Below, one piece after another: positions 24,955-61,775 of a stretch of DNA of 64,000 nt (position 1 is the first letter of the stretch; every line of letters starts with the position of its first letter). The stretch spans positions 5,641,001 to 5,705,000 of the forward strand of contig OZ004584.1 in assembly GCA_963924555.1 (NCBI GenBank), in the 5' to 3' direction. A program made the translations under genes and the position numbers. The notes beneath the pieces were generated by a model. The model worked only from the letters and a program-made list of their open reading frames with translations, searched no databases and was not told where the DNA came from. The DNA comes from Crambe crambe. Taxonomy: Eukaryota; Porifera; Demospongiae; Poecilosclerida; Crambeidae.

Positions 24955-25192
24955 GGTTAATAATAATAATAAATAATGAACACTATCCTTAATATAGGAA
25001 AGGAGTGGACTACATCCTACATATGCATATAGTATGGTGATCACACCACTTTTTTTATCACCCCATAGGATTAGCTAGTCTGATCATGCCACTTTTTATC
25101 ATCCCATAATTATGACAATGATACAATCAAGTCAATTGGGCACCATGCATAATGAAATTCATCATTTATCATGAATCAACAGCTAGCTATAG

Positions 25193-32873: not shown

Positions 32874-32926
32874 GGAAGTATTTTGCGGTTATTTTTAATC
32901 TTTCTGCAGCCTTCATCAAGTAGATG

Positions 32927-42440: not shown

Positions 42441-43630
42441 CTAAGTGTATGAACGGTAGGCAGTATCACAAAAATAATCATTACCAGCAAAGCTAGGGAC
42501 AGTTGGTGGTGGAGATAAGTTTATATTGCTGCAAGGACATTGCCATCTCTCGTTAGTTGGTGTTTCATCACGTGTTCCTGCAAAACTCCAGATGTGTTTG
42601 CGAGGACTTCTACCATGAGTCAGGCTCACTCCATAGACATATGAGGAATCAATGCCACGAGAATGATAGTAGAAACCAGGGACAGCACGATTCTGATATC
42701 CGATAATCCTTCCATACACGTGACTGTACTCTACCCCATGGACAGTGAAGGTAGTACTGACACATTCACTAATTGTGTTTGTATCACACACTTTTCTTGG
42801 TGGTGAATTCCTTGTCGATAATGTCAGTCCATTTGGACACTGGTGGCTGGTATTCCTCACGTCTATGTAGGCCACCCTCATCCATCCTCTTGTAAGATTC
42901 CCAGAAGTTGCATTCATATTACAGTACACTCTGACAGGAGATCCTTGTGTACTAATCCAGTAGTAACCAGAAGGGTTCCATGGAGGTAGTGCTTTGCAGG
43001 AACTAGCAGGGTTGTCTTCAGTGAGGCCATGGTTAGAAGGCATTAGTCCATTACAATTATCTGCATACTGCCTGTTGAAGTCACAGTACTCACGCACAGC
43101 AGAACCATTGGAGGACCTGATCCAGTAGTAACCTGATGGGGAGGAGAGATTCAACAGCAAGACATGGCAACATGAAGCAACAGGATTACTAGGATTCTGC
43201 CCAATCATAATGTGTAGTATGTTTATCTTGGAATCCAACGACCTTGAGCTATTAGTTTGAAGTTCAAAGTTATGATCCACCAAGTCTTCAAGCTGAAAAA
43301 TGATCTTGAATGATTTACTTGAAGCTCATCATGATCGTTTCGTAGCTGTGCTAAACTTCTTTTGAGGTTGGATATGCTAATTTCATAACTGGCGGAATTC
43401 TTTAGTGAAATAGCCAAGCTAGCAAATGCTGCACTACCTAATAAGATGATTCCAATTAGTGCAAATGTATAACATACCCAACTATAAGTATGTTTCTTCA
43501 ACTCTGACTTTACTTGCTGAGATTTTACAGCTGTGGAGACTTTCGAAGAAACACCATAGCAAGGATTCCTGTCTAGTGATGTGATATTTCTTGCACCCTC
43601 TACTAACTCATAAGTATTTTCTTCTTCCAT
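42441..43630 (-). pseudogene. Array copy 1: receptor paralogue, frameshifted and 3' truncated
   Basis: Encodes the MEEENTYELV tail, NPCY motif, membrane anchor, stalk and both PSGYYWI modules. It is broken by a one-base deletion near 43300: CTGAAAAATGATC against CTGAAATAATGATC in the copy at 47253. Coding similarity stops at GTATGAACGG (42441), so the conserved C-terminal cysteine cluster (DPLWDGAGC...) is absent. Downstream is the tail of the FN3 receptor pseudogene, so a rearrangement removed the end. Apart from these lesions the frame is well conserved, implying a recent loss. Confidence 0.85.
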
Positions 43631-44167
43631 GACTAGTAGCAAGTCAGTTTAACTAATGTGTCATGGTCGTGTTTTTAGCTAGTTTAACACAAATTGTGTG
43701 TATTAATAATTGTTGAGTCTCAATTGCATAACTATGTTAACAAAAAATCAATACTCTATCTTGTGTGAAATCATATAACCATGTCTACGCTATCCTGTAA
43801 GAATGTGAATGTTAGCATACTGACACGTTATCAAGCAAACTTGAATGTTTATTATAAGAAATAAAAACAGCAAAGCTACAAGTGGAAGAAATAGAGTGAA
43901 CTGCACCATCAATAACTAGATAAAGTGTGTTATAGCTAATCACATGTACTTGTAGACTGTCACTGATGTAGCTACTATTAATGGCTTCGTGATTAGTATT
44001 CTGGGAGACACACTCCTCTCTTTTAATGTGGATGTAATGATTCACTGTAGCCTTCTGAGAACCTGTAGAGTAAGGGTAGAAGAGAAAGAAGAGTTTTTAG
44101 TTTATACAGTCCTATGGACTTTGACCTGCCATCCCTACTTAGAGAGTGCTAGCGCACTCTCTGATAA

Positions 44168-44405
44168 CCTTAGTGAAATAACCAAGCTAGCAAATGCTGC
44201 ACTACCTACTAAGACTAATCCAACTAGTGCAAATGTATAACATGCCCAACTATAAGTAGGTTTCTTCAACTCTGACTTTACTTGCTGAGATTTTGCAAAT
44301 GTGGAGACACTTGTAATCTGGTTTGAAGCAAGATCTTCATAGGAAGGATCTAGTGTTGTGATGTTTTTTTACATCTACCAACTCATAAGCATTTTCTTCT
44401 TCCAT
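44168..44405 (-). pseudogene. Array fragment: N-terminal tail and membrane anchor only
   Basis: Begins at the usual MEEENAYELV start and runs through the membrane segment. There is a frameshift in a T-run near 44366-44373. It stops at 44168, where a CATCCCTACTTAGAGAGTGC/GCACTCTCTGATA palindromic element begins, so element insertion or deletion truncated it. Confidence 0.85.
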
Positions 44406-44849
44406 GACTTTGTAGCCAGTTAACAATTTATATTGAACTAAACGAATCCACTTAGCTACTTTTATGCCAACAAACTAAGTATTATTATTAGCTACTGCAG
44501 AGTAATTCATGTTTATTATAATGAACATATTTGTTTGTGCAACCATGACATCACTTAAATTAATTACTACATTTTCATCTTAGAATGTAAATAATTACTT
44601 TGATAATAGTGTATTTAAAACCCTGCACAACAGCATATTATAATCACAATCATGCATACATAAACCCACAATGTCATAATATTCTCACTGATGTGTCTTG
44701 ATAGCTAATGAGCAATGTTCATTATCAGTCAGTCATGTTTGTGGTCCACTCAGTCATGATCACACACAAACACATGCCATGCATACCCATGCATAATTAT
44801 GCATGACATGCAGATATGTACGTATATGTATGTATGTATGTATGTGTGG

Positions 44850-45200
44850 AGTCACTGGCAGTGAGTGGTTTGCACTCTGGGCTTGTAAGCGGGAGACCAC
44901 CAGCATTAATTTGCTGTGAACATCATGCTACCAGTCCAAATGGGTACCTGGAATTTCAGAATTTCCAGGGTGCATGATCACACTGGCTATCCCTCCAATA
45001 TCAGCTGTGGTCCAGGTGGGACTTCGGGTGCCCACACCACTTGCTGAGAAGAGATAGTTAGTCCTCCTGCAAGTTCCTAGCCCAGGCTCCAGGAGGATGC
45101 CAGCACTGGCTCTTAGTGCCTGCTTATAGTGCACAGGCATCCTGGCTTGACTAGGTGTGAGTGACCACTCAGCGGCAGCTAGATGATTTGCATTTTTTGC
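44850..45200 (+). mobile_element. Candidate tRNA-derived SINE
   Basis: The head TGGCAGTGAGTGGTTTGCAC...GGGCTTGTAAGCGGGAGACC resembles tRNA A-box and B-box spacing. The body (TACCTGGAATTTC..., CTGGTTATCC-like, CAAGTTCCTAGCCCAGGCTC) recurs in inverse orientation at about 54030-54250 without the head. No coding sequence. Confidence 0.45.
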
Positions 45201-45850
45201 ATGCATGTATGTATATATTATGTAGATGCACACACACACACACATGCTGTGTAACTGCTGTTACAACTTAATACAAGTCCCTCCCCATGGACAATAAGTA
45301 TAGTACTTCTCCCTCACTCCTAGTGTGAACATTCCTTACTCCTGAATCACTTTTCATGGATCCATTGATTCACCAACCCTAAATAGTCTCAGGGTTGATT
45401 AGCTATAGGAGGACAAAGTACTAATTGATCAATGTTATCTTGCACAAATACTCAACTGTACCTCGGAGAGATTCAACAGCAAGACATTGAAGCAACAGGA
45501 TTACTAAGATTCTGCCCAATGGAATCCAATGACCTTGAGCTAACTATTAGAAGACAGAAGTTCACTATGATTGTTTTGGAGCTGTACGTACATGCTAAAC
45601 ATCTTTCTTTCTTTTTTTTTGAGGTTGTGCTAATTAAAAAGGCCATGTAGAGTTAGCTTGTACTTTTTTTAACCTATAGCAGTTTCTGTGAACAAGCATC
45701 AAAAGTGCCAATAGGCACTTGCTAGCTAGTACTTTATGAATTAGTTACTAATAACACAATAATAGAATAATACGTAGTATAAAACTAATCTAAGGTTATT
45801 TCACACTCAAATTGTCTCTGTTCATTCCTCAATCTAAGATTATAATTATC

Positions 45851-47253
45851 TCACTGTACATAGAGCTCAACCAATTCTATCGGTGTACTTCCTACAGCTC
45901 TAGGTCGACATAACCTCATCTCCACATCATCAGTGGTGGGGGAGGGAAGGTCCTTGACGAACCATGGTGGGTTATTGAAGGAACAGCAGGTATTGTCAGA
46001 GCCACAACCAGCTCCATCCCAGAGGGGATCAGCAGGTTGGAGTGTTTGGGGTACATTTGACCAACCTATAGTACCAATGGCAGTATCACAGAAATAGTCA
46101 TTATTGATATAGTTGGTGGTGGAGATAGGTTGGTATTAATACAGGGACACTTGCGATCTCGGTTTTCTTGATATCGTTCATCAAGTGCTCCGGCAAAAGT
46201 CCAGATGTGCTTGCGTGGATTTCTACCATGAGTCAGGCTCACACCAGAGACATATGAGGAATCGATACCACGAGTACGGTAGAGGAATGCATCAACAACT
46301 GGTATCTGATATCCTTTGATTTTTCCGTACACATGACTGTACTCAATTCCATGGACAGTGAAAAAGATACTAACACACCCAGTAGTTGTTGAATTGCACA
46401 CTCTTCTTGGTGCTGAGCTCCTTGAGAATAATGTCAACACACTGGGACACTGGTGGCTGGTGTTCCTCATGTCTATGTAGGCCACCCTCATCCATCCTCG
46501 TGTTAGATTAACAGAAGTTGCATTCATATTACAGTACACTCTGACGGGAGATCCTTGTGTACCAATCCAGTAATAACCAGAAGGGCTCAATGGAGGTAGT
46601 GCTTTGCAGGAACTAGCAGGGTTGTCTTCAGTGAGGCCAAGGTTAGAAGGCATTAGTCCATTACAATTATCTGCATACTGCCTGTTGAGGTCACAGTACA
46701 CACGCACAGCAGAGCCATTGGAGGACCTGATCCAGTAGTAACCTGATGGGGAGGAGAGATTCAACAGCAAGACATGGCAACATGAAGCAACAGGATTACT
46801 AGGATTCTTCCCAATCATATGTAGTGTGCTTATCTTGAAATCCAATGACCTTGAGGTATTAGCTTGAAGTTCAAAGTTATGATCCACCAAGTTTTCAAGC
46901 TGAAATAATGATCTTGAATGATTTGCTTGAAGCTCATCATGATCGTTTTGGAGCTGTGCTAAACTTCTTTTGAGGTTGGATATGCTAATTTCATAACTGG
47001 CGGAATTCCTTAGTGAAATAGCCAAACTAGCAAATGCTGCACTACCTACTAAGATGATTCCAACTAGTGCAAATGTATAACATACCCAACTATAAGTGCG
47101 TTTCTTCAACTCAGACTTTACTTTCTGAGATTTTGCAGATGTGGAGACACTTCTAATCTGGTTTGAAGTTGAAGGAACTTCATAGGAAGGGTTTTTATCC
47201 AACGATGTAATGCATTTAGCATCTACCAACTCAAAAGTGTTTTCTTCTTCCAT
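45851..47253 (-). pseudogene. Array copy 2: full-length receptor paralogue with a late 10-bp deletion frameshift
   Basis: From the MEEENTFELV start the frame is open through tail (NPSY), membrane anchor, stalk and both modules to SPPPT. At about 46104, 18 bases of the intact copies (encoding VPSYVG) are replaced by 8, shifting frame and giving a 395-residue product with an aberrant end. The correct C-terminal 82 codons follow intact in another frame (DYFCDTAIGTIGW ... DPLWDGAGCG ... VELYVQ stop at 45851). A truncated protein lacking the last cysteine cluster could still be made; a sequencing error is the alternative. Confidence 0.8.
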
Positions 47254-47344
47254 GGCTTTAGTAAATAGTTACATTAGCAAGTTAAATTAATCCGCTCTGG
47301 TTGTGTCTTTTTTATGTCGGATAACTTAATACAAATGCAGTATA

Positions 47345-47407
47345 CACTGTAAACTGTTATTTAACAATCAACCCATTGGTTTGTTTTTATATATTGTTTT
47401 TACAGTG
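47345..47407. mobile_element. 63-bp CACTGTAAA mini-element flanked by TA
   Basis: CACTGTAAA...TTTACAGTG ends with TA on each side, as for Tc1/mariner-type MITEs. Related to 53281-53398. Confidence 0.7.
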
Positions 47408-47458
47408 TATGTATACCATGGCCTGCATACTTGGCATGTACTATAGGAACATATAACT

Positions 47459-47890
47459 CAGTGGCGTATCTAGCGAGGTGCTCAGGGTGCTCGAGCACCC
47501 CCCTCAGCTGCTAGCTAGCTTTTTCAGTAGGCTCGCTTCTATAGTTATCTATCCTAAAGCTGATCATCTAGCAAGCAGTTTAATATTACACTCACAGAAA
47601 GAGCAGCATTGGGTCAGAGTTCAATAATCACATCGGTGAGGCGCATGCGCCCGGCACGTTTTTACCCTAAATAATGCACATCTCGATCTAAAATTTCTGT
47701 GCTTCTTTATTCAGCCTGCACCTCACTTCTGATCCTGTACGCAGGTAAAGTAGGGTAGCTAATACTTAGGCCATCATCTGGGTATAATAAAGAGGATGTG
47801 GTTAATCAAAAGTGGGCGTGGTTCGAAAAAATTTCGCGCGCGCATTCTCTATCTAGCACCCTCCTAGCTCAAATTCTAGATACGCCACTG
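47459..47890. mobile_element. CAGTGGCGTAT-ended MITE with TAACT target duplication
   Basis: Ends CAGTGGCGTATCTAG and CTAGATACGCCACTG, with TAACT directly on both sides. The interior has the GTGGGCGTGG...AAAATTTCGCGCGC module near the right end and a GAGCACCCCCC stretch near the left. Same family as 13585-13894. Confidence 0.9.
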
Positions 47891-47904
47891 TAACTGTAGT
47901 ACTT

Positions 47905-48035
47905 TCCTATGAGAAAAAAACATTTCCATGAAATAATTTTAAAAATGTAGGGATATATGACCTTTGCTCAAAAAAGTAAGGAAACGAGGGTAGGGATGAA
48001 GGATGGAAAGTCTTTGTTCTGTATATTCAGCCAAG
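47905..48035. mobile_element. Single arm of the AAGTAAGGG foldback family
   Basis: AAAAATGTAGGGATATATGACC..AAAAAAGTAAGGAAACGAGGG...GATGAAGGATGGAAA parallels the left arm at 34140-34220. The second arm is missing. Confidence 0.7.
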
Positions 48036-48190
48036 AATCCATCAATCTTACTACTTGTGCTGCCATGAGCTACCCTGACATTGGAGCTGTGGTGCATAAT
48101 GCATCTTATAGTGACTATACAGGACTTCTCAGTAGATGCCATCCCTACTCCCCACACCTTAATTAATTTCCTAGCTTACATTATATACAT

Positions 48191-48613
48191 TTAGTGCTGG
48201 TCACATGACTTGTGACCAATCAGATTCTCTGAAAAGTGTACTTTAAATCTCATAAAGCACACTTTCATGTGCACTAAATATTTAGTGCACACTTGAGGAA
48301 CTGTGCTGAAGGTACATAGGAGCCTAGTGGAAGATCCACTAGGACTATGACCTTCCAGCCTCAGTCCCTAGTGCTTACAGTAAATCTATACCTTAATGTC
48401 TCCTTTTATAGACTTTAGCATTTCACTTTTTACATTGGGTTTCAAACAGGAAAACCTCAGGAATTTACCTCATTTATTTTTTTGAATATCATTAAATTAG
48501 AGCATTCTTACTGAACCAAAGTGTGTCAGAGCTTGCTAGGGCTAGGCTAGGGCTAGGATTCTGTAAGGACCAACTGGAATTTGATTGGTCACAAGTCATG
48601 TGATCAGCACTAA
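48191..48613. mobile_element. Foldback element with TTTAGTGCTG ends
   Basis: The left arm TTAGTGCTGGTCACATGACT..GTGACCAATCAGATTC is mirrored by GAATTTGATTGGTCAC..ACATGTGATCAGCACTAAA-type sequence at 48576-48613. About 330 bp lie between, with no ORF of note. Confidence 0.82.
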
Positions 48614-48623
48614 AATGTTTAGA

Positions 48624-48727
48624 TCACTCTTTTCTAGCTCCATGTGTTTTAATGCATGGTGCACTCGAATGATGCTATAATGCTCGTGCAGGTGCATTAA
48701 AACACTTAGAGCTAGAAAAGAGTGAAC
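48624..48727. repeat. Perfect-looking hairpin of about 100 bp
   Basis: ACTCTTTTCTAGCTC...GTGTTTTAATGCA and TGCATTAAAACAC...GAGCTAGAAAAGAGT form a stem of over 30 bp directly beside the previous element. Confidence 0.85.
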
Positions 48728-48730
48728 TAA

Positions 48731-49429
48731 ATATTACATAGTTTATACTCACTGCATGGTGTATTATAGACGGGCTACTTCTCAGTAGTTCCTGGGAATG
48801 TGCAATACTTAAAGGCAAGTGAGCTTTTAGAGCTGATAGACTCCAACTTTTAAAATTTTGCTGTTGGAGGTTCCAACCAAGTAGCTAAATACATAGGAAG
48901 GTATAATGTTTACCAAAAAGCACTTAGCACTGATTGCTGCAGAAATCAAGCTGAATTACTGGACACTTAACAGTTTTAATAATGAGTAGGCAGTGGCCAA
49001 TTTAGCATGCGGGTGGTAGTGGACAGGAAACAATGAATTTAATCACACTGGCCTAATGTCCTGTAGGGTATGAATAATGTACAGAGTTATCATTATTAAT
49101 AGACCTCGAATTGTAAATACATGTATTCCAACAACAAACATGTTAGTACAATAAACCGATGATAATTATCAAAAATCCAATTTTTCATGAGTGAAAATAA
49201 CATTCTAACATGGTGTTTAGATAACAATTTCAAAAGTAATTGAAACAATAATTTCAAACCTTGGACGACGACAGCTAGCTATAGCTATAGAGCACACATG
49301 CACGTACGTAAAAGGTCATAGTAATACATAAATATGCCTGCATACACATAATATGCATGCCTGTCCTGTGTCATTTCTATTGCAATTAAGTCTCTCTCAT
49401 AGACAGCAAATTCTACATACCCTATAATT
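48731..49429. other. Intergenic, nothing recognised
   Basis: AT-rich sequence with no gene, tRNA or complete element visible. Confidence 0.4.
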
Positions 49430-49583
49430 TCCTTCAACTCAGACTTAATTCACTTGCTAACATTTTGCAGTTTGCAGATAATTATGGTTTGAAGCATAAT
49501 AGCTACGTAGTTAGCTACATATGAAGGATTACTAATGTGATGTACATTGCATCTACCAACTCATACACATTTTCTTCTTCCAT
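49430..49583 (-). pseudogene. Array fragment: decayed N-terminal tail
   Basis: The minus strand starts at the usual position with the MEEENVYELVDA-like beginning and runs to the CTGAGTTGAAGGAA region that precedes the membrane anchor. Insertions of TAGCTACGTAG-type sequence disrupt it. Nothing downstream of the tail remains. Confidence 0.75.
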
Positions 49584-50085
49584 GACAGTTAACAGTGTAT
49601 GTTGACACTACTTATGTTTGCAGATTGCCACTTATAATGTTCTTATAAATATATCTTATCCAGGTGCTACCTCACATGACAAGTCAATCACGTGAACTGA
49701 ATAAAATGATGACACAGGATAACATGATACAGAATAATAATAATAATACTGCTGAGAGTAATTCAAGTCAAAACTGTCTATGACAACAAACATGTTTATC
49801 ACAAAAATTAATTACTATATGAGTAACAAACAAGTGTGTGTGCATTATAAAAAAATAAAAGGAATGTTATGTAATCACGATCACTTAAAGCTACACAAAC
49901 CTGCATATTTCACATGATAGTGAGCTAATGTTTAATCAGTTTTCTAATCTCAGTCATATTCATTGTCCACTCAATGATGATCACAGTACCACACACACAA
50001 TAAAAAAAATGGAGGGATGATCATTGCTAAGGAAATAAGGGTAGGCTCTCTGATATAATGGAGGTTGTGCATTCACCACTTATTC

Positions 50086-50352
50086 CAGATTATGACTATT
50101 TCTGTGATACTGCCATTGGTACTATAGGTTGGTCGAATGTACCCCAAACACTCCAACCTGCTGATCCCCTCTGGGATGGAGCTGGTTGTGGCTCCAACGA
50201 TACCTGCTGTTCCTTCAACAACCCATCATGGTTCGTCAAGGATCTTCCCTCCTCACCACTGATGATGTAGAGATGAGGTGATGTAGAGATGAGGTTATGT
50301 CGACCTGGAGGTGGAAATACGCTGATAGAATTGGTTGAGCTCTACTATTAGT
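50086..50352 (+). pseudogene. Inverted C-terminal fragment of a receptor paralogue
   Basis: The plus strand encodes DYDYFCDTAIGTIGWSNV...DPLWDGAGCGSNDTCCSFN..SWFVKDLPS, nearly identical to the C-terminal part of the copy at 45851-47253 but in opposite orientation to the rest of the array. A duplicated GATGTAGAGATGAGGT and a frame slip follow. It sits about 75 bp from the broken 3' end of the copy at 50428-51654, whose missing end it probably is. Confidence 0.85.
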
Positions 50353-50427
50353 TACCAGCTGTAAGTATATGATTCATAAAGTGATTTGAGTACTAGCAAG
50401 TAATCAAATTTACTCCTTCATAACATG

Positions 50428-51654
50428 ACGGAGATAGGTTGGTATTGATACAGGGACACTGGTGATCTCGGTTTTCTTTATATTGTTCATCAAGTGCTCC
50501 AGCAAAAGTCCAGATGTGCTTTGCAGGGATTTCTACCATGAGTCAGGCTCACTCCAGAGACATATGAGGAATCGATACCACGAGTATAGTAAAAGAATGC
50601 ATAAACAACTGGTATCTGATATCCTTTGATTCTTTTGTACACATGACTGTACTCGATTTCATGGACAGTGAAAAAGATACTAACACACCCAGTAGTTATT
50701 GAATTGCACACTCTTCTTGGTGCTGAGCTCCTTGAGAATAATGTCAACCCACTGGGACACTGGTGGCTGGTGTTCCTCATGTCTATGTAGGCCACCCTCA
50801 TCCACCCTCGTATTAGATTAACAGAAGTTGCATTCATATTACAGTACACTCTGACAGGAGATCCTTGTGTACCAATCCAGTAGTAACCAGAAGGGATACT
50901 TGAGGGCAGGGTTGTCTTCAGTGAGGCCTACGCTAGAAGGCATTAATCCATTACAATCATCTGCATACTGCCCATTGAAGTCACAGGACACACGCACAGT
51001 AGAGTCATTGGAGGACCTGATCCAGTAGTGACCTGATGGGGAGGAGAGATTCAACAGCAAGACATATGGCAACATGAAGCAACAGGATTACTAGGATTCT
51101 TCCCAATCATATGTAGTGTGCTTATCTTAGAATCCAACGACCTTGAGCTATTAGTTTGAAGTTCAAAGTTATGATCCACCAAATTTTGAAGCCTTGTCAA
51201 TGACCCTGAATTGTTAGTCTGAAGTTCAAGGCTATTACGTATCCACTAAATTTTGAAGTTGCATCAATGATCTTGAATTATTCACTTGTAGTTCATTCTG
51301 AAGCTGAGTTAATAATCTTGAATAATCATTCTGAAGCTGCATCAATGATCTTGAATAACTTGTTTGAAGTTTACCGTGATCATTTTGGAGCTGTGCTAAA
51401 CTTCTTTCAAGGTTGGATATACTACTTGAGGAATTGCTTATTGAAATAGCAAATGCTGCACTATTTAAGATGATTCCAACTAGTGCAAATGTATAACATA
51501 CCCAACTATAAGTAGACTTCTTCAACTTGGACTTGACTTGCTGAGATTTTACAGCTGTGGAGACTTTTGAAGAAACATCATAGCAAGGATTCCTGTCTAG
51601 TGATGTGATATTTCTTGCACCCTCTACTAACTCATACTTATTTTCTTCTTCCAT
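50428..51654 (-). pseudogene. Array copy 3: receptor paralogue with frameshifts and inverted 3' end
   Basis: Begins MEEENKYELVEG with an NPCY motif and a shortened membrane segment (GIILNSAAFAISI). The stalk is expanded (SRSLMQLQND-type repeats), then frameshifts occur near 51235, 51070 and 50845. The second module and the GWMRVAYIDM stretch are readable. Similarity ends at GACGGAGATAGG (50428), after which the remaining C-terminus appears inverted at 50086-50352. Its ATG lies 5-10 bp from the broken 3' end of the next copy, leaving no upstream promoter. Confidence 0.85.
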
Positions 51655-51660
51655 GACTTC

Positions 51661-52947
51661 TGTGGCAGAGATGGGTTGGTATTAATACAGGGACACTTGT
51701 GATCTTGGTTTCCTTGATATATCGTTCATCAAGTGCTCCGGCAAAAGTCCAGATGTGTTTGCATGGATTTCTACCATGAGTCAGGCTCACTCCAGAGACA
51801 CATGAGGAATCGATACCACGAGTACGGTAGAAGAATGCATAAACAACTGGTATCTGATACCCTTTGATTCTTCCGCACAAGTGACTGTACTCAATTCCAT
51901 GGACAGTGAAAAAGATACTAACACACCCAGTAGTTGTTGAATTGCACACTCTTCTTGGTGCTGAGCTCCTTGAGAATAATGTCAGTCCACTGGGACACTG
52001 GTGGCTGGTGTTCCTCATGTCTATGTAGGCCACCCTCATCCATCCTCTTGTAAGATTCCCAGAAGTTGCATTCATATTACAGTACACTCTGACAGGAGAT
52101 CCTTGTGTACGAATCCAGTAGTAACCAGAAGGGCTATTTGAAGGTAGAGTATTGCAGGAACTAGCAGGGTCGTCTTCAGTGAAGCCAAGGTTAGAAGGCA
52201 TTAGTCCATTACAATTATCTACATACTGCCCATTGAAGTCACAATACACATGCACAGCAGAGCCATTGGAGGACCTGATCCAGTAGTGACCTGATGGGGA
52301 GGAGAGATTGAACAGCAAGACATGGCAACATGAAGCAACAGGATTACTAGGATTCTTCCCAATCATATGTAGTGTGTTTATCTTGGAATCCAATGACCTT
52401 GAGCTATTAGTTTGAAGTTCAAAGTTATGATCCACCAAGTTTCGAAGCTGCATCAACGATCTTGAATAATTCATTTGAAGTTCGTCAAAATTATTCTGAA
52501 GCTGCATCAATGAGCTTGAATAATTCATTTGAAGTTCATTCTGAAACTGAATTGATAATCGTGTTTCAAGTTCATCATGATAGTGCTGATGCTGCACTAA
52601 TGATAATTTGCTTGAAGCTCATCATGATAATTTTGAAGCTGTTGTAATGATCTTGAAAAATTATCGTCTTGCATGAAGCTAATTTCATAATTGGTGGAAT
52701 TCTTTATTGAAATAGCCAAGCTAGCAAATGCTGCACTACCTACTAAGATGATTCCAACTAGTGCAAATGTATAACATACCCAACTATAAGTAGGTTTCTT
52801 CAACTCTGACTTTACTTGCTGAGATTTTGCAAATTTAGAGACACTTTTAATCTGGTTTGAAGTTGAAGGAACTTCATAGGAAGGATTTTTATCTAGCAAT
52901 GTGATGCATTTTGCATCTACCAACTCATAAGCATCTTCTTCTTCCAT
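51661..52947 (-). pseudogene. Array copy 4: receptor paralogue, frameshifted stalk and fused 3' end
   Basis: The N-terminus MEEEDAYELVDAKCI, NPSY motif and membrane anchor are intact. A frameshift near 52600 lies within a stalk expanded by repeated LQNELQMNYS-like units. Both PSG(H/Y)YWI modules follow. Two extra bases near 51717 (GATATATCG against GATATCG) shift frame again. The sequence then joins the start of copy 3 after CATCTCTGCCACAGAAGTC, so the C-terminal cysteine cluster is deleted. This is a head-to-tail deletion junction. Confidence 0.85.
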
Positions 52948-53280
52948 GACTTTGTAGCCAGTTTAACAATGTACACATCCACTCACTTTTATGCCAAATA
53001 ACTATTGTGTTAGATACTGCTGAGAGTAATTCAACTCTATAACAACATGGTTGTGCAACCAATGGTATTCTCATGAGAGTATACATGCAGTAGTTTGCAG
53101 AACAGTTGTCATGCATAAGGCTCTTGAATAGCTAGTGGCTAAGAACAATAGGGCTATGAAAACATTTTATTGTTCCCAAGCCACAAATACTTCAAGGCCC
53201 CTGCCTGATGCATGAAAATTGTTCTACAAACTACTGTAATGCTTTGATAACAAACGTGTGTATGCATAAATTCAGCTATA

Positions 53281-53398
53281 CACTGTAAAAATGAAAGTGT
53301 TTACTGCACACCATTTTGTCCCAATACACACACTGTTTTGTTTTTAGTGTGTGTATTGGGACAATTAGTGTGCAGTACACACTTTCATTTTTACAGTG
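53281..53398. mobile_element. TA-flanked CACTGTAAAAATG MITE (Tc1/mariner-like)
   Basis: CACTGTAAAAATGAAAGTGT at the left and its complement at the right, with TA on both sides. The interior includes TGGGACAA and TGTGCAGTA, the sequence amplified at 3376-3508. Confidence 0.88.
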
Positions 53399-53643
53399 TA
53401 GGAATTTTATAATCATAATCACTTATAGCTACACAATTAATCTCATGCTCAGTCAATAATCAGTTTTCTAATCTCAGTCAATGATCAGTTTTCTAATCTC
53501 AGTCAATCAATGATCAGTTTTATAATCACAGTCATGTTTGTGGTCCACTCAGTCATGATCACAGCACCACACACACAATGTACATATGCAATGCATGCAT
53601 GCATGTAAATATGCACAAACTGCATACAATGCAATGGAAATCA

Positions 53644-54010
53644 CATAGTTGCCAACCTCTGGAAATGGAATATAGGGACAGTCTATAAGCGCCATAGGCG
53701 CGCGCGAAAAATTTGTAGACCACGCCCACTTTTTATTAAACACGCCCGTTTTGATTAAATTTGGGATCGGGAATGACGCTGGATTTCATGATGTCATTTG
53801 TTTATAACTTCAGATCACATGATGTTTTATAATGATACAGCTTTAAGTAGTCTCACGGGGCAGACTTGATTCTTTCTTTGGTCCGCGAGACTACCTTGTA
53901 GCTCTATCTGTCGGGACAAGTCATTATTAAAGCACTATGTCGGGCGGGACCGGGACAAGAGGTATAATATCGTGAGTGTCCCGGCCAAATCGGGACGGTT
54001 GGCAACTATG
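53644..54010. mobile_element. CATAGTTGCCAACC-ended DNA element with a nested MITE
   Basis: CATAGTTGCCAACC at the left and GGTTGGCAACTATG at the right are exact inverse complements. The interior has GGCGCGCGCG and a GACCACGCCCAC module. The 46-bp MITE at 53848-53893 is inserted inside. Confidence 0.88.
53848..53893. mobile_element. 46-bp TAGTCTC MITE nested in another element
   Basis: TAGTCTCACGGGGCAGAC...GTCCGCGAGACTA. The smallest recognisable member of the family at 30485-30864. Confidence 0.75.
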
Positions 54011-54029
54011 AAATCATAATAGCTGCCAC

Positions 54030-54372
54030 TGAGTAATCATGCACACCTGGTCAAGCCAGGAGCCTGTGCATTAAGCAGGCACTATGAGCCAGTGCTGGCA
54101 ATCTCCTGGAGCCCAGGCTAGGAAGTCGTAAGGACTGACTATCTCTTCTTAGCAAATCCCGAAGTCCCATCTGGACCACAACTGATATTGGAGAGATAGC
54201 CAGTTTGATTTACACCCTGGAAAATCCAGGTACCCATTTTCAGCTGACATGCACGCATGCACACACACAGGTATGGATGTAAACATGTATACCCATGGAC
54301 AACAAGTACATGTGAACAGTCAAACAACCCCTGTTCCTGAACCACTTCTGGCAGGGGTAGGCAGGCCTTTAT
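54030..54372 (-). mobile_element. Second copy of the SINE-like element, head missing
   Basis: In inverse orientation it matches 44940-45170 and the following tail (CAAACAACCCCTG.TCCTGA.CCACTTCT, also at 57790-57830). It lacks the tRNA-like head. Confidence 0.5.
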
Positions 54373-55789
54373 CCACTAAATTGCCTTGGGCAGTATAGTT
54401 CGGCAAGTGAGTGCAGCAAGCAAGTTGACTCTCAGGTCTTAGGCGGTCATAATCCAAATGCCCTGCATACATGTGTATAATGCACATGCCCATAATTATG
54501 CTCCTGATTGTTTTCTACAGCATCATTGTGGATTGTAAGCCTAAGTGGATTGTAGAAATGTAGCTACTTTGTGTGGTAAACATTACTGTTTCCTAAGTAA
54601 AAACTACCACTTACATGAATGAACAGCAATTAAGGAGTTGAAAGCATAAACAAGTTGGAGCCTTAAGGGTGCAGGCACATAGTAACCAAGGCATGCGCTA
54701 GTACAAGCACTAATTAACCACAAACACTACCGCGCTAAAATAGTAAACACAATTGCAGCTGCTGCTTTGGCACATATAAAATCCATGCTAGCATGAATAA
54801 TGAACAAGTCATTGCAACTCAGGAACTATGCATGGAAATGAGCCAATATTTTGCATATGGCAACTACTTGATAAGGTCTAAAAAGTTACATTTTGGTTTA
54901 GTTTATAGCTAGTACAGAATGTGCAAGACACAAGATCCTATATGGATAAATTGAAAAGTAGAATGTGAATTGACAAAACTAAATGTAATTTTTATGGCAA
55001 TAAGTATAAGAAGCTGTATATCAAAAATCAGCCATTGATTCCAAGTGGTTATTGAGATGCAACACAGTTTACCTTGAGAATGAAATCGGTCATAACATCA
55101 GTCATTTTGATGGGTCCTCCTTCATTTTCTGTGTATGTAGTATTATTCTGATACTTAATACCTTGGCGCAAGTTAGAAATTTCTATCATGAATAGTTTTA
55201 AGTTAATTTTCCCTAGCAACCATGCGTGGGCAGAGTGTGCCTGCACCCTTAACCATTACTAGCTTGCTCACTCACTGTTAAATGTTGCACATAGCCCTAG
55301 TAATATATTCATTTCGGAGGAGTAACTCATCCATGCACACACACTATTCTATTAGAAGCTATGTAGCTAGATGGCTAACCATATACAGGCAGATGGCAGG
55401 TAAGTTGAGCCATGTCCCACCGTTAGTTATATATACAACATTGAAGCACACAAATCAGCTAGCTATAGAGTATGAGCCAGTGGCCATCGTCACATAAAGT
55501 AATTCAAATACCTGGTATAACAACATGATACTAACCAGTCACAATTAGCTATACCTAGATATTTCCAGTGACCCATCTGAATATCAAGTACTAGCTATAA
55601 TGATGACATTTCTAATGTACGTAGCAAAAGCCTGATCCCTGCTACTTGCATTACTGTGCATGCATATATTGAAACCGAGTTGTTGGTAGGGACACTATAA
55701 ATAAACATGATCTCATCAGATCGCACGGTATGTTGCAGCCACAATGTGCACAAGCACTCCCTCCACATCCTTTCTGATCATGTGTATGT
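54373..55789. other. Intergenic, downstream of array copy 5
   Basis: About 55500-55665 is a diverged copy of the left part of 62810-62990 (ATTTCCA.TGAC..ATCTGAAT, GCAAAAGCCTGATC). The spacer therefore duplicated together with the genes. No coding sequence beyond the fragment that follows. Confidence 0.5.
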
Positions 55790-55960
55790 TCGTGTAACAT
55801 ATTCAGGTCATCAGTTGTGGACTGGGGGAGGGTCTTGCAGAACCATGGAGGGTTATTGAACTGGCAGCAAGTGCTGGAGGGACCACACCCCTGACCATCC
55901 CAGAGGGGATCATCGGGGTAGAATGCATTGGAAGTGGCAAAAGTTCCATGGTTACAACAA
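55790..55960 (-). pseudogene. Orphan C-terminal receptor segment
   Basis: The minus strand encodes NAFYPDDPLWDGQGCGPSST, then CCQFNNPPWFCKTLPQ and STTDDLNM, the family's C-terminal cysteine cluster. It diverges from every other copy here and ends in unrelated cysteine/histidine-rich residues (GCGGSACAHCGC). It lies just 3' of the intact copy at 56031. ATATACAG precedes it as a possible splice acceptor, so it could be an alternative last exon or the relic of a lost paralogue. No upstream part of such a paralogue is seen. Confidence 0.65.
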
Positions 55961-56030
55961 ACTAGCTGTATATACATGTACAGAATAAAAAATTGTTCCT
56001 GTTATACTTACATTATTCTACTAACTAGTC

Positions 56031-57434
56031 TCACTGTACATAGAGCTCTACTAGTTCAATTGATAGAATTCCATCTCCAGCTGGTCGACATGACCTCATC
56101 TCTACACCATCAGTGGTGGGGGAGGGAAGGATCTTGGTAAACCATGGTGGGTGGTTAAAGGAGCAGCAGGTACTGGTGGGACCACATCCAGCTCCATCCC
56201 AGAGGGGGTCGGAAGATTGGAATCCCAGGCCAGTGTATGAACGGTAGGCAGTATCACAAAAATAATCATTACCAACATAGCTAGGGACAGTTGGTGGTGG
56301 AGATAAGTTTATATTGCTGCAAGGACATTGCCATCTCTGGTAAGTGTTATCTGGTGTTTCATCACGTGTTCCTGCAAAACTCCAGATGTGTTTGCGAGGA
56401 CTTCTACCATGAGTCAGGCTCACTCCATAGACATATGAGGAATCAATGCCACGAGAATGATAGTAGAAACCAGGGACAGCGCGATTCTGATACCCGATAA
56501 TCCTTCCATACACGTGACTGTACTCTACCCCATGGACAGTGAAGTTAGTACTGACACAGGTGTAGCTTGTTATATCACACACTCTTCTTGGTGGTGAACT
56601 CCTTGTCGATAAGGTCAGTCCATTGGGACACTGGTGGCTGGTGTTCCTCATGTCTATGTAGGCCACCCTCATCCATCCTCTTGTAAGATTCCCAGAAGTT
56701 GCATTCATATTACAGTACACTTTGACGGGAGATCCTTGTGTATGAATCCAGTAGTAACCAGAAGGGTTCCATGGAGGTAGTGCTTTGCAGGAACTAGCAG
56801 GGTTGTCTTCAGTGAGGCCAAGGTTAGAAGATATTAGTCCATTACAATTATCTGCATACTGCTCATCAAAGTCACAGTACCCACGCACAGCAGAACCATT
56901 GGAGGACCTCATCCAGTAGTGACCTGGTGGGGAGGAGAGATTCAACAGCAAGACATGGCAACATGAAGCAACAGGATTACTAGGATTCTTCCCAATCATA
57001 TGTAGTGTGCTTATCTTGAAATCCAATGACCTTGAGGTATTAGCTTGAAGTTCAAAGTTATGATCCACCAAGTTTTCAAGCTGAAATAATAATCTTGAAT
57101 GATTTGCTTGAAGCTCATCATGATCGTTTTGGAGCTGTGCTAAACTTCTTTTGAGGTTGGATATGCTAATTTCATAACTGGCAAAATTCCTTAGTGAAAT
57201 AGCCAAGCTAGCAAATGCTGCACTACCTACCAAGATGATTCCAACTAGTACAAATGTATAACATACCCAACTATAAGTAGGTTTCTTCAACTCAGACTTC
57301 ACTTGCTGAGATTTAGCAGATGTGGAGACACCTTCAGTCTGGTTTGAAGTTGAAAAAACTTCATAGCAAGGATTTTTATCTAGTGATGTGATGCATTTTG
57401 CATCTACCAACTCATAAGCACTTTCTTCTTCCAT
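56031..57434 (-). CDS. Array copy 5: intact type II receptor, 467 aa, fibrinogen-like ectodomain
   Basis: An intact intronless gene. The tail (1-54) has YELV at 7-10, a YxxPhi-type motif, and NPCY at 21-24, an NPxY motif; both are known in other receptors as endocytic or PTB/SH2 docking signals. The anchor spans about 55-81 without a signal peptide, so topology is type II. A coiled-coil stalk (about 85-147) has LQNDHDELQANHS-type heptads and N-glycosylation sites. The ectodomain has two fibrinogen-like openings, SPPGHYWMRSSNGSAVRGYC (about 168-187) and NPSGYYWIHTQGSPVKVYC (about 223-241). GWMRVAYIDM follows, then the C-terminal cysteine cluster (388-450; DYFCDT, DPLWDGAGCGPTSTCC, PPWF). A TATATG-like box sits about 50 bp upstream. 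Probably a cell-surface lectin-like or recognition receptor; the ligand is unknown. Confidence 0.88.
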   Translation of the reverse strand: MEEESAYELVDAKCITSLDKNPCYEVFSTSNQTEGVSTSAKSQQVKSELKKPTYSWVCYTFVLVGIILVGSAAFASLAISLRNFASYEISISNLKRSLAQLQNDHDELQANHSRLLFQLENLVDHNFELQANTSRSLDFKISTLHMIGKNPSNPVASCCHVLLLNLSSPPGHYWMRSSNGSAVRGYCDFDEQYADNCNGLISSNLGLTEDNPASSCKALPPWNPSGYYWIHTQGSPVKVYCNMNATSGNLTRGWMRVAYIDMRNTSHQCPNGLTLSTRSSPPRRVCDITSYTCVSTNFTVHGVEYSHVYGRIIGYQNRAVPGFYYHSRGIDSSYVYGVSLTHGRSPRKHIWSFAGTRDETPDNTYQRWQCPCSNINLSPPPTVPSYVGNDYFCDTAYRSYTGLGFQSSDPLWDGAGCGPTSTCCSFNHPPWFTKILPSPTTDGVEMRSCRPAGDGILSIELVELYVQ

Positions 57435-58145
57435 GATTTATAGCCAGTTAGCAATGTAGCTACATTGGCACTACCATTTTTCTTTATATGCCGTATTAGC
57501 TAATTACTGCTGAGAGTAAAATTATCCTGTTTGTGCAACTAATTACTACAGTGTACATTCTCCATCATGCATGCTTGAGTATTGGACATAGCTGGAATTA
57601 TTTTTGATAACAAACAAGATTATCAATGTGCATTATTAACTTTTGTCACATGTTTGTGGTCCACTCAGTCACGATCACAGATCACAGCAGCACACACACA
57701 CATACATACACACACATGCTTGTCCTGCATCATTTCTATTCTGAGTCCCATCCCATAGATAACAAGTCTAGCATTTTTCCCTTGCTCCTAGTATGGACAG
57801 CCAAACAACCCCTGCTCTTGAGCCACTTCTCATTGTTCTATATAGGTGGATACTTTAACCACAGATGGCTAGATTAGTTCATGATGACAATAATTTAGTG
57901 TGAATGTCTTGGGGTTCAATAGTGGCTATAACACCAGTACTCTGTAAAAATAAACATAGGTACGTACTTTAACCCCACCTAAGCTTGTGCTATGAATAGC
58001 CATCAAAAAAAAAATGGAATGAAGCATAGCAAGGAAAGAGCTACCCAGATGATTTCACTTAGCTGCAATAATCCATGCAACTCAGACTGTGGTTAATTTG
58101 CAGAGTAGAGACCCAATTTTGGCCAAATGTACACCTATTGCCTAT
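57435..58145. other. Upstream region of array copy 5
   Basis: Carries the block TTTGTGGTCCACTCAGTCA(C/T)GATCACA (57651-57680) that recurs before other array members (near 44735-44763, 49955-49985 and 53530-53570, and in part 62110-62125). This shows that promoter-side sequence duplicated with the genes. It also contains short CA repeats and a SINE-tail fragment. Confidence 0.6.
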
Positions 58146-58324
58146 ATCAGAGAGTACGACAGTACTCTCTAAGTAGGGATGGCACGGATGCTCCATTGGA
58201 GTGGTACTTAATATTTACTTTCATAACTCCAGAATACTTCCCTCCTACAGTCAGGAACTCCTAACTTGAAGACAGGACTCAAGTAGGAAGAGCAGAAGAC
58301 AAAGCAGTATCATTTTACAGCAAC

Positions 58325-58360
<36 letters not shown>

Positions 58361-58370
58361 CAACTTATTT
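58146..58370. mobile_element. Inverse copy of the (GAT)n-bearing element
   Basis: Begins TATCAGAGAGTACGACAGTACTCTCTAAGTAGGGATGG and runs to a (CAT)n tract at 58325-58358. The body is the reverse complement of about 2265-2465. Confidence 0.75.
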
Positions 58371-58728
58371 CAGAAGTGGTTCATTCAAATGCTATAATTC
58401 TTATACCAATCTACTCAGAAATCAAATCCTTTACCTTTAACTGGACATGTTCACGTCATTTTCCAACTTGTTAGCTTTCAACCTACAACGAGGCAGACAT
58501 TTTATGCCCCGCCCTGTACACGTGACATTGTCGACCCAGTGCGCTATAGAAACAGCCCCGTGAGCGAATAGTGATCTTGGTTAAGAGTTTCTTTTTGTCT
58601 GTCAAATCAATCTATTTACTGTCACCAACAGTGATAGCTAGCTGCAGGCCTCAATTCTTATGCCAACTGGAAAGATGGACTCCACCATACTTTCGTCTCT
58701 ACTTGAATTACATCAAAAAAGTAGATGA

Positions 58729-59029
58729 ACAAGTAAAGGAAAAAATAATAAAAAAGGCAAGTAGGGATGACCAATGTGTATGGTTCAAAAAGTTCAGGAA
58801 CAAGAGAGTGAACTTCAGTCAAGTAACCCCTTACCCATCACCAACTATGAGCTAACTATTCCTACATCACTCCCTTTATATCTCATCTTGGCCTGTCATG
58901 GGCGTGAAGTAGGAATAGTTAGCTCGTAGTTGGTGATGGGTAAGGGGTTACTTGACTGAAGTTCACTCTGAATTTTTTTGAACCATACACATTAGCCATC
59001 CCTACTTGGTATTTTTCCTTTACTTGTCA
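58729..59029. mobile_element. Nested foldback (AAGTAAAGGAAAAA outer, AGTAGGGATG inner)
   Basis: Outer arms ACAAGTAAAGGAAAAAAT and ATTTTTCCTTTACTTGT enclose a complete AGTAGGGATG foldback at 58760-59006. Arms of the inner part include GTGAACTTCAGTCAAGTAAC and its complement. Related to 21439-21588. Confidence 0.85.
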
Positions 59030-60371
59030 TAATATTATCATGATAATGCATGTGGGAGGGAGATGTGCCCCCTCCCACACAAAGCATGATAAAAATAAGT
59101 AGCCCTGCTAGGTCAACTGAGATTTGTTATCAATATCAGTAGCTACAGATAGACTAACTTGACTGGTCTACTCACATTTTATTCAAATAGTTTCACTTCG
59201 CTAATAGCTAGTTACAATAATCCACACAACTTAGGCAACCAAACCTAATTGAGAGTACCCCACACTTCTATTTTGGAAAGTTGGTGTGTATCTATAAGTT
59301 CCATCTAGAATTAGCTAGCACACCTCAACACATAAGTGTAGGAAGAAGGGCTCCAATAGACTCCCCCCCTTCAATATTATAGGCCAATTACATATGCAAT
59401 TAGAATGCACCAGATTCAATCTAGGACGCCCTAAAATTATGTTATATTATCCTAGGGGGGGAAGGGGGCCAAATATATATGGCATTCAATGAGCTAACAC
59501 ATGTTAGTCAGGGAATTATGGCTTGATAAACTGTCCGTGCTGCCTGAGCCATAATTCCTTGAACATTGTCTTGATGTACATTATAGCTATTACTCAAGAG
59601 GATAACTGGTTGACTCAGTCACTGTGAGGTACATTATTCTTCTTATTTAATACAGGCTAAAATATGTTCTCCAGTTCTCCACATCTTTTAGACGATTATA
59701 GCTAAACTGCATGTGAGGCACATTCTTCAGATCTCTTTACAGCTAAAGAGGAACATCCTCCACATTTTTTTTTCTTGATGACTAATAAACTGTGAGGCAG
59801 ACCCACCTAATAGTAGCTAATAATAACATGCACTAATGATGTGTCTATACTAATCAGGATAAGACAACTGAGGCTAGATAAGCCACACATAATTGAGATT
59901 GCATGCACTGTAAGTTGCATCCACTCAATGTGACTGCCATAAGGTGCTGGGTATAGACATGCAACATAGTTACGTTGCAGACTGACTCAGAACAAGGACT
60001 AATCAAGTCTGTAAGGATAATTATTGATATAGACCATATAACATGCAAACGTATCGCTTATCATAACTATTGTACGAACATGAGGTTTGATCAACTCAAT
60101 AATAATAATAAGGCACTTCAATCCCTCATTCACATGTATTCACTAATAATAATTTATGGCATAATTATATAAATTTACAAATTTCATAATCATATATATA
60201 TAGTACAAGATTAATGACAAGACCACTATAACTACAGCTGAAATTCACAATGATTATAGTAAAAATATTTATAGTACTAATTAAGTACCACAATTATACA
60301 TGTGTAGCTATGACAATCTATCCACAAGTTTTACGTATATGTAGGGGATACATTTATTGATCTCTTTTCTG
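59030..60371. other. Intergenic, dispersed repeats only
   Basis: Includes a copy (about 59905-60075) of the repeat at 19873-20100 and a small palindrome around GGGAATTATGGCT/AGCCATAATTCC (59513-59562). No gene. Confidence 0.5.
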
Positions 60372-61775
60372 TCACTGTATGTAAAGTTCAACTATTTCAA
60401 TCGGTGTGCTTCCATCAGTCGAAGGTCGACATAATCTCATTTCTATATCATCAGTGGTGGGGGAGGGAAGGTGCTTGACAAACCATGGTGGGTGGTTAAA
60501 GGAACAGCAAGCATTAGTGGGACCACATCCCTCTCCATCCCAGAGGGGATCAGCAGGTTGGAATGCTCCAGGTACATTGTTGTAATGTGTGCTGAGGGCA
60601 GTATCACAAAAATAGTTGTTGCCAACGAAATTAGGGATAGGTGGAGTGGGGGATATATTAGTATTGATGCATGCACATTTGAATCTTGGGCTATGTGTAT
60701 TTGCTGTTTCATCAGCTGCTCCTGCGAAGGTCCAAATGTGATTACGGGGATTTCGTCCGTGGGTCAGACTCACGCCAAAGACATATCCACTATCAATACT
60801 ATAAGAATTAAAGTAAAATGCAATGGGGATTCTATTCTGATATGCAATGATTCTTCCATACACGTGACTGTACTCGAACCCATGGACAGAGAAAGTGTTA
60901 CTAATGCATCCAGTACTGTTGATGTCACATGTTCTTCTTGGAGCTAAACCCCTTGAGAGTAAGGTCAGTCCACTGGGACACTTGTGGCTGGTGTTCTCCA
61001 TGTCGATGTAGGCCACCCTCATCCATCCTCCAGTCAGATTCCCGGAAGTTGCATTCATATTACAGTACACTCTGACTGAAGATCCTTGTGTACGAATCCA
61101 GTAGTAACCAGAAGGACTGTTTGAGGGCAGAGCTTTACATGAACTAGCAGGGTCGTCTCCATTGAGGCCAATGCTAGAAGGCATTAGTCCATTACAATTA
61201 TCTGCATACTGCCCATTGAAGTCACAGTACACACGCATAGCAGAGCCATTGGAGGACCTGATCCAGTAGTGACCTGATGGGGAGGAGAGATTCAACAGCA
61301 AGACATGGCAACATGAAGCAACAGGATTACTAGGATTCTTCCCAATCATATGTAGTGTGCTTATCTTGGAATCCAATGACCTTGAGCTATTAGTTTGAAG
61401 TTCAAAGTTATCATCCACCAAGTTTTGAAGCTGCATCAATGATCTTGAATAATTTGCTTGAAGTTCATTGCGATCGTTCTGGAGTTGTGCTAAATGTCTT
61501 TCAAGGTTGGATATGCTACTTGAGGAATTCCTCAGTGAAATAGCCAAGCTAGCAAATGCTGCACTACCTACTAAGATGATTCCAACTAGTGCAGATGTAT
61601 AACATACCCAACTATAAGTAGGTTTCTTCAACTCTGACTTCACTTGCTGAGATTTTTCAGATGTGACAACACTTTTAATCTGATCTGAAGTTGAAAGAAC
61701 TTCATAGGAAGGATTTAGATCTAGCGATGTGATGTATTTTGCATTTACCAACTCGTAAGCATTTTCTTCTTCCAT
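60372..61775 (-). CDS. Array copy 6: intact type II receptor, 467 aa, fibrinogen-like ectodomain
   Basis: Intact, intronless and exactly as long as copy 5. The tail has YELV at 7-10 and NPSY at about 21-24. The anchor is YSWVCYTSALVGIILVGSAA (about 54-73 onward). The stalk LAQLQNDRNELQANYSRSLM carries glycosylatable NYS. The two modules are SPSGHYWIRSSNGSAMRVYC and SPSGYYWIRTQGSSVRVYC, then GWMRVAYIDM. The C-terminal cluster (NYFCDT, DPLWDGEGCGPTNACC, PPWF, DDIEMRLC) ends VELYIQ. The frame is open upstream to an ATG at 61835, but a TATA-like box (61824-61833) lies between, so I place the start at 61775, matching MEEEN in all paralogues. It differs from copy 5 mostly in the C-terminal half, where ligand contact would be expected (inference). 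Confidence 0.88.
   Translation of the reverse strand: MEEENAYELVNAKYITSLDLNPSYEVLSTSDQIKSVVTSEKSQQVKSELKKPTYSWVCYTSALVGIILVGSAAFASLAISLRNSSSSISNLERHLAQLQNDRNELQANYSRSLMQLQNLVDDNFELQTNSSRSLDSKISTLHMIGKNPSNPVASCCHVLLLNLSSPSGHYWIRSSNGSAMRVYCDFNGQYADNCNGLMPSSIGLNGDDPASSCKALPSNSPSGYYWIRTQGSSVRVYCNMNATSGNLTGGWMRVAYIDMENTSHKCPSGLTLLSRGLAPRRTCDINSTGCISNTFSVHGFEYSHVYGRIIAYQNRIPIAFYFNSYSIDSGYVFGVSLTHGRNPRNHIWTFAGAADETANTHSPRFKCACINTNISPTPPIPNFVGNNYFCDTALSTHYNNVPGAFQPADPLWDGEGCGPTNACCSFNHPPWFVKHLPSPTTDDIEMRLCRPSTDGSTPIEIVELYIQ

Follow-up and report, generated by a model that had tools for sequence, protein, structure and literature searches.

A clustered family of single-exon genes for predicted type II receptors with exchanged modules in the sponge Crambe crambe

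Overview

The window analyzed here is a stretch of 64,000 nucleotides from the sponge Crambe crambe (assembly GCA_963924555.1, contig OZ004584.1, here termed C6, positions 5641001-5705000), which contains part of a tandem array of single-exon genes encoding predicted type II membrane receptors. These receptor genes are modular mosaics: the tree of the anchor (cytoplasmic tail and membrane segment) and the tree of the recognition head conflict strongly. The architecture of the genes, the scale of the family, and its mosaicism are well supported and, like the conservation of the tails, were read directly from the DNA. The preferred reading, with a probability of about 0.6, is a family that grows and decays by duplication, exchanges parts between its copies, and is used in surface recognition. 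Both the size of the family and its turnover largely through module exchange were missed by an earlier model-generated description of the window (the original prediction).

Receptor genes in the window

The receptor genes and fragments found in the window, together with the parts of gene W1, are as follows (ORF, open reading frame; aa, amino acids).

60375-61775, minus strand: intact type II receptor W1, single-exon ORF of 467 aa (tail with two tyrosine motifs, membrane segment, stalk, fibrinogen-like opening 1, then opening 2 and recognition head)
61590-61775, minus strand: cytoplasmic tail of W1, 62 aa, with YELV and NPSY motifs
61164-61316, minus strand: fibrinogen-like opening 1 of W1, of the type II kind; joint with low synonymous divergence
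61062-61145, minus strand: fibrinogen-like opening 2 of W1, start of the head, of the kind found in C15 genes
56034-57434, minus strand: intact type II receptor W2, single-exon ORF of 467 aa, laid out as W1
55798-55935, minus strand: isolated C-terminal fragment
51719-52947, minus strand: near-full broken copy with a frame change in the stalk, lacking the C-terminal end
50429-51654, minus strand: near-full broken copy with several lesions, lacking the C-terminal end
50076-50345, plus strand: inverted C-terminal fragment with two in-frame stops
45854-47253, minus strand: near-full broken copy with one frame change near 46110-46130
44162-44405, minus strand: isolated anchor fragment (tail and membrane segment) in two frames
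42444-43630, minus strand: near-full broken copy c1, mosaic, with a frame change in the stalk and lacking the C-terminal end
4318-5622, plus strand: single-opening cousin W4, intact ORF of 435 aa, the last listed member of a plus-strand cluster at C6:5.42-5.65 Mb

W1 and W2 each encode a tail of about 60 residues, which has no hydrophobic leader, and then a strongly hydrophobic segment. The stalk that follows leads to two openings and a C-terminal part rich in cysteine. The original prediction had described two intact genes, at least four near-full copies, and several fragments at 42.4-61.8 kb, with a single-module relative at 4318, and this inventory agrees with it, as it does with the proposed type II anchor and duplicated fibrinogen-like opening. 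Its placement of all members on one strand held for the genes, the near-full copies, and most fragments (minus) but not for the C-terminal fragment at 50076-50345 (plus). The window array is one end of a 95-kb array that reaches approximately C6:5,778,365 and contains 19 anchors, of which two are interrupted by a frame change, and six full-length intact genes (W1, W2, L009, L010, L012, and L016). These counts, and the pseudogenes among the tandem copies, are those of the tandem birth-and-death family that had been proposed.

A short palindromic element ending in AAGTAGGGATGG was found at 44130-44166 (minus strand) and 58145-58181 (plus strand), with a partial copy at 2456-2473; none was expected in shuffled sequence, the pattern for this test having been derived from the same two copies. 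A small mobile element is suggested because the copy at 44130-44166 abuts the truncated anchor fragment that starts at 44162.

Size and distribution of the family

Genome-wide searches covered 143 Mb in 119 contigs. Wnt exons gave 14 matches in them (on C18, C8, and C9), five to the C-terminal half, as befits an animal genome. Three of the six qPCR primers published for Amphimedon queenslandica (PMC5118744) had no match at up to one mismatch, a result that a primer spanning a splice junction would give as well, and the source is therefore probably not that species. The exact DNA signature for PLWDGxGC occurred at least 259 times (98 forward, 161 reverse), and a reversed-pattern control gave no match. 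A search with the 90-aa anchor, in which 142 of 142 candidates were scored, returned 119 matches, representing at most 117 places since two genes account for two matches each; 114 were on C6, between 2.63 and 6.55 Mb, and five were on C5, C12, and C17. Open frames of at least 380 codons contained 76 of the 119 matches, and frames of less than 250 codons contained 29. The collection of paralogues that the original prediction had proposed thereby extends the family well beyond the window.

Type II members were also fetched from outside C6 (L031 on C17, L029 on C5). Members without the type II anchor were found on C15 (L037-L039), C1 (L045), C3 (L046), C17 (L043), and C19 (L042); all except L042 are secreted-looking, a term that denotes only a hydrophobic stretch at or near the start. 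The signature members on C1 and C3 are short and secreted-looking, and in L045 the pattern used found no fibrinogen-like opening. L044 (C6:7537560-7539100) combines a B-type head with a different tail containing several YSxI/L-type motifs. Two places on C6, 5548818-5550059 and 5572322-5573563, had equal match scores and are probably a very recent duplication. No relative was confirmed in GTDB genomes (20 pattern matches, 0 confirmed) or in IMG/VR (9 pattern matches, 0 confirmed).

Head types and the doubled opening

By the first letters of the head, the 46 fetched type II genes with long open frames comprise 7 of type A, 10 of type B, and 29 of type C. One clade of the head tree (support 100/99) held type A together with the secreted-looking C15 genes L037 and L038, and another (100/100) held type C; B was not a clade. 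Among the matches listed for the last part of W1, 12 of 13 places on C15 were 62-75% identical and one was 46% identical, which indicates that the window array carries heads of the C15 kind.

Two openings were found in nine of the 46 genes. In the array, opening 1 is of the type II kind (SSNGSAVRVYC) and opening 2 is of the C15 kind (TQGSPVRVYCNMN); L033, in which a C-type anchor is joined to a B-type head, also has two openings. The doubled opening is best read as a putative fusion scar between a type II anchor and a head of the secreted kind, because an anchor ending in one opening and a head starting with one would leave two in tandem.

Conflicting trees and breakpoints

Head types required seven changes on the anchor tree, where the minimum possible is two, and the closest anchor partner differed from the closest head partner in 33 of 43 genes. 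Tree conflict was assessed with approximately unbiased (AU) tests, five of seven of which rejected the grouping. The anchor tree rejected a single clade for all genes with C-type heads (p 4e-64) and the pair W1 and L009 (p 0.006), and the head tree rejected W1 with L025_7219 (p 2e-11), L060 with L061 and L051 (p 2e-7), and L058 with L064 (p 2e-4). W1 and L025_7219, which lie 170 kb apart on different strands, are 92.6% identical in their anchors and 55.7% identical in their heads. The heads of L036 and L052 are identical in protein and DNA (1.000) and their anchors are 95.0% identical, as might result from recent conversion or duplication.

Breakpoints were located in 16 triplets, hand-picked and partly overlapping, with 2000 permutations each. 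In 15 triplets none of the 2000 permutations reached the observed switch, and in the other one seven did. Twelve of the 16 breakpoints were at or beside the membrane segment or the opening: eight in the membrane segment or across its edge, that of W1 two to seven columns before it, and three in the opening or the stretch just after it (L061, L054, and L012).

The broken copy c1 provides an example within the window. Between its 5' flank and about position 42,900 it agrees with L012, which lies about 58 kb away, at 560 of 570 informative sites (560:10), and in its 3' part it agrees with W2 at 98 of 111 (13:98). The partner changes near 42832-42931, so that the copy is L012-like up to the openings and W2-like after them.

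Synonymous divergence and selection

In each of the three clusters examined (A, B, and C), synonymous divergence dipped in the membrane segment and the opening relative to the rest of the gene, least sharply in B. Between clusters, the proportion of synonymous differences (pS) was 0.56-0.81 in the head, compared with 0.13-0.22 in the opening and 0.20-0.34 in the membrane segment. As a control, the WDG/CC segment, which is conserved in protein, had a pS of 0.68-0.72 over the whole region and of 0.81-0.83 in core windows for B against C. At the membrane joint the proportion of nonsynonymous differences (pN) was about equal to pS (pN/pS of 0.27/0.34, 0.22/0.20, and 0.23/0.31), which favors recent common ancestry over constraint. 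At three places in cluster C, at distances of 0.6-0.7 Mb, opening pieces of approximately 125 bp reached 89-93% identity, and in the same DNA search, with the best candidates scored, the rest of the gene gave no match there. Exchange between copies would explain the low pS at the joints better than constraint. Between clusters A and B, gene conversion would be likelier than unequal crossing-over because their orientations are opposite.

The ratio of nonsynonymous to synonymous change (dN/dS), taken as point estimates averaged per segment, was 0.2-0.6 in 21 of the 28 segments of the three clusters, less than 1 in 26, and 1 or more in two. Values above 0.6 in clusters A and C came with very few synonymous changes (opening 1 of A, 0.98; membrane segments of A and C, 0.77 and 0.66); those in B were in the tail (0.85), the membrane segment (3.29, at a pS of 0.03), one head segment (1.08), and the WDG segment (0.65). 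A site test on the heads of cluster C, the largest cluster, found none of 175 sites positively selected and 26 negatively selected (p<0.05, uncorrected), with power limited and recombination present. Positive selection on the ectodomains, for which the original prediction had proposed a test, was therefore not found. Within the reach of these tests, turnover and exchange seem to contribute more to the diversity of the family than rapid point substitution does.

Membrane anchor, stalk, and tails

In all 46 type II genes a hydrophobic segment follows a tail of 45-93 aa. Lysine and arginine averaged 3.8 in the last 18 residues of the tail and 1.3 in the first 15 residues of the stalk. This excess of basic residues next to the membrane on the tail side fits a type II orientation; the topology is a prediction from hydrophobicity and charge. 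The heptad signal of the stalk was moderate, with a median z of 1.7 over 44 stalks and values above 2 in 20 of them, and the coiled coil previously proposed for it therefore found weak support.

The two tail tyrosines are among the most conserved positions of the tail. In 43 aligned tails all 41 filled rows had the first tyrosine and 95% of 43 had the second, an asparagine stood three residues before the second in 95% of 42 filled rows, and the median share of the most frequent residue over 49 tail columns was 59%. The first motif was YxxP in 18 of the 46 tails, YxxV/I/L/M/F in 25, and other in three; among these, L066 was first counted as other and was recoded for the pair count below, as it reads YELP further on, and L060 and L061, with fetched sequence incomplete, were classed by a later motif and are P either way. 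Leucine or isoleucine, as in the YxxL/I of the immunoreceptor tyrosine-based activation motif (ITAM) and the hemITAM, stood three residues after the first tyrosine in only 11 of the 46 tails. A strict NPxY was present in 15 of 46, and 26 of the 41 second motifs found had no proline.

The class of the first tyrosine changed eight times on the head tree and four times on the anchor tree. Heads at least 90% identical formed 23 pairs, and in 11 of these the class differed (YxxP versus YxxV/I/L/M/F), the 11 representing a few related groups and not 11 events. Similar heads on differing tails are the sequence pattern of paired receptors. Signaling by the tails is plausible, at roughly even odds, and the differing tails may carry opposite signals.

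Sequence kinship of the opening and the head

A profile of 32 members matched human intelectin-1 (4wmq_A) with an E-value of 1.7e-6 over profile positions 143-223, and also matched XEEL (1e-4), the serum lectin 7e1e (2.7e-4), the COLFI chains of collagen propeptides, and, weakly, an angiopoietin-related protein (0.4). All PDB matches of the profile were confined to the region of the opening, and W1 as a single sequence had no PDB match below an E-value of 0.13. The family shares the opening with intelectins, and membership itself is not established because the matches cover the opening only. For the 228 positions after the opening, a profile of 19 sequences matched no PDB sequence at E<=10 at the sequence level, and no convincing Pfam-A family was found in 19 members (best E 0.056). 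The unusual C-terminal part noted in the original prediction was thus confirmed as a head for which profile searches gave no solved relative and no Pfam-A family was convincing.

Three other memberships were rejected. For C-type lectins and for FReD/FREP proteins, no corresponding Pfam match (Fibrinogen_C for the latter) was found up to an E-value of 1 in the four receptors scanned, in which immunoglobulin domains were likewise without a Pfam match. For collagens, the best COLFI stretches covered no more than about 60 of 233 positions, and none of 52 proteins had four or more consecutive Gly-X-Y triplets (three in a row occurred in 19 of the 52).

Interpretation and alternative explanations

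In the plan of the family, a short tail that contains the two conserved tyrosines leads into a single membrane helix, and this is followed by a stalk that carries a fibrinogen-like opening and then the cysteine-rich recognition head. Copies would arise by duplication, decay by pseudogenization, and exchange parts ectopically. The exchange would take place mainly at two joints of shared homology, one in the membrane segment and one in the opening, and would reassort signaling tails and heads. The window array could have originated in a fusion that attached a complete head of the secreted-looking C15 kind to a type II anchor already terminating in one opening, giving tandem openings. The most likely use would be in surface recognition receptors of defense cells, with microbial or self/non-self ligands, and with tails that recruit SH2/PTB adaptors or drive uptake. 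An immune or allorecognition role is the likeliest reading, with about an even chance; this role, like the ligand class and the signaling, is predicted from sequence features. It is a tentative and rather doubtful extension that the genes form the main innate or allorecognition complex of the sponge, in which about 100 type II receptors, most of them encoded on a single chromosome, would share a lectin-like head of a new sort and two built-in exchange joints, as an independently evolved phosphotyrosine paired-receptor system at the base of the animals.

Several points weigh against the preferred reading. The analysis is based on the sequence of one genome of one species. The triplets and the groups for the AU tests were chosen after the trees were seen, and two of the four AU tests on the anchor tree failed to reject the head grouping (L060 with L066, p 0.22; L058 with L067, p 0.06), so some tail swaps rest on few sites. 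The other four breakpoints were in the stalk (L055 and L033), well inside the tail (L066), and inside the head (L057). The low pS at the joints could partly reflect constraint at the nucleotide level. The tails are not classical ITAMs, the pairs with differing tail classes are few related groups, and no positively selected site was found. AlphaFold2 models from window-only alignments of six and eight rows were poor (mean predicted local distance difference test scores of 29.1 and 29.8).

Among the rivals, the most serious is that the proteins are endocytic or feeding receptors, lectin-like surface proteins that capture bacteria or particles as food and use the YxxPhi and NPxY-like motifs as sorting signals, on the model of type II scavenger or asialoglycoprotein-type receptors. 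The nearly invariant asparagine before the second tyrosine, the 15 strict NPxY motifs, and the 25 tails with YxxV/I/L/M/F are all in its favor; yet with YxxP as the first motif in 18 tails and the proline missing from 26 of 41 second motifs, there is no strict sorting signal across the family, and a receptor that served uptake alone would gain nothing obvious from exchanging its tail. This rival was considered possible, at a chance well short of that of surface recognition. A role in adhesion or in organizing the matrix, with expansion for structural reasons as in proteins akin to collagen propeptides or fibrinogen-like matrix proteins, is improbable: a partial COLFI match covered the opening in all four receptors scanned, three at or above the curated cut-off, and COLFI chains were among the PDB matches, but the Gly-X-Y runs are lacking, the COLFI stretches are short, and high turnover with tail conservation would be unusual for matrix proteins.

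Least probable is that the copies are ordinary vertical duplicates and that the uneven synonymous divergence reflects selection on DNA or RNA in the membrane segment and the opening. That the dips occur at the same places in all three clusters is what such selection would produce, but the trees of the two gene halves conflict, c1 changes partner sharply although its 1-kb 5' flank is 99.2% identical to that of L012, and the near equality of pN and pS at the membrane joint points to recent common ancestry. 

Other features of the window

Two single-exon proteins at 25249-26931 (plus strand) and 31149-32888 (minus strand) each contain two AIG1/GIMAP-like GTPase stretches (Pfam AIG1, 1e-16 and 2e-19) and are visibly close paralogues in opposite orientation; a third ORF, at 23851-25074 (minus strand), was judged by eye to be P-loop GTPase-like. 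A protein of 1,192 aa at 8012-11590 (minus strand) contains Chlamydia-PMP-like repeats (E 9e-15) and, by eye, a C-terminal part with multiple membrane segments. A tandem repeat at 7088-7558 consists of 12.4 copies of a 38-bp unit with 98% matches.

Comparison with known systems

No description of this receptor family was found in the titles and abstract openings of the literature covered, from which subscription journals were mostly absent, and the words 'intelectin' and 'X-type' did not occur in a word search of a review of Porifera lectins (PMC4557014). The array genes resemble intelectins (X-type lectins) in the fibrinogen-like opening. They differ in that the heads have no sequence match to the C-terminal calcium- and glycan-binding part, and in that intelectins are secreted whereas the array genes encode predicted type II membrane proteins with tails. 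The nearest printed parallel found is the placozoan intelectins, reported as 31 genes, most of them clustered and most with a signal peptide (PMC6321704). With the COLFI C-propeptide of collagens the opening segment aligns, but only about a quarter of the domain is covered and there is no Gly-X-Y run.

The mammalian natural killer (NK) gene complex (PMC2704933, PMC3322459) is likewise a cluster of type II receptors with a stalk and a C-terminal lectin-like head. The sponge genes differ from it in having heads without a C-type lectin match, a single exon, and tail motifs that are not strict hemITAMs. The tails of Dectin-1 and CLEC-2 in that complex are similarly short and N-terminal, with a tyrosine soon after acidic residues. 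Expanded or variable recognition families occur in other invertebrates, as in Hydractinia Alr. FREPs and Botryllus fester are further examples.

To our knowledge, the sponge genes for discrimination of grafts and microbes are not settled, and a chromosomal complex with a testable layout of tails, joints, and heads would supply concrete candidates for recognition genes. There is a likeness in mode of change to the paired receptors KIR, Siglec-11/16, CEACAM, and CD300, in which similar ectodomains on different tails are reported to be kept or made by exchange through gene conversion; the protein family, the animal group, and the scale are different. If the preferred reading is true, the swapping of tails between recognition heads that is known from these mammalian receptors arose independently in another animal lineage.

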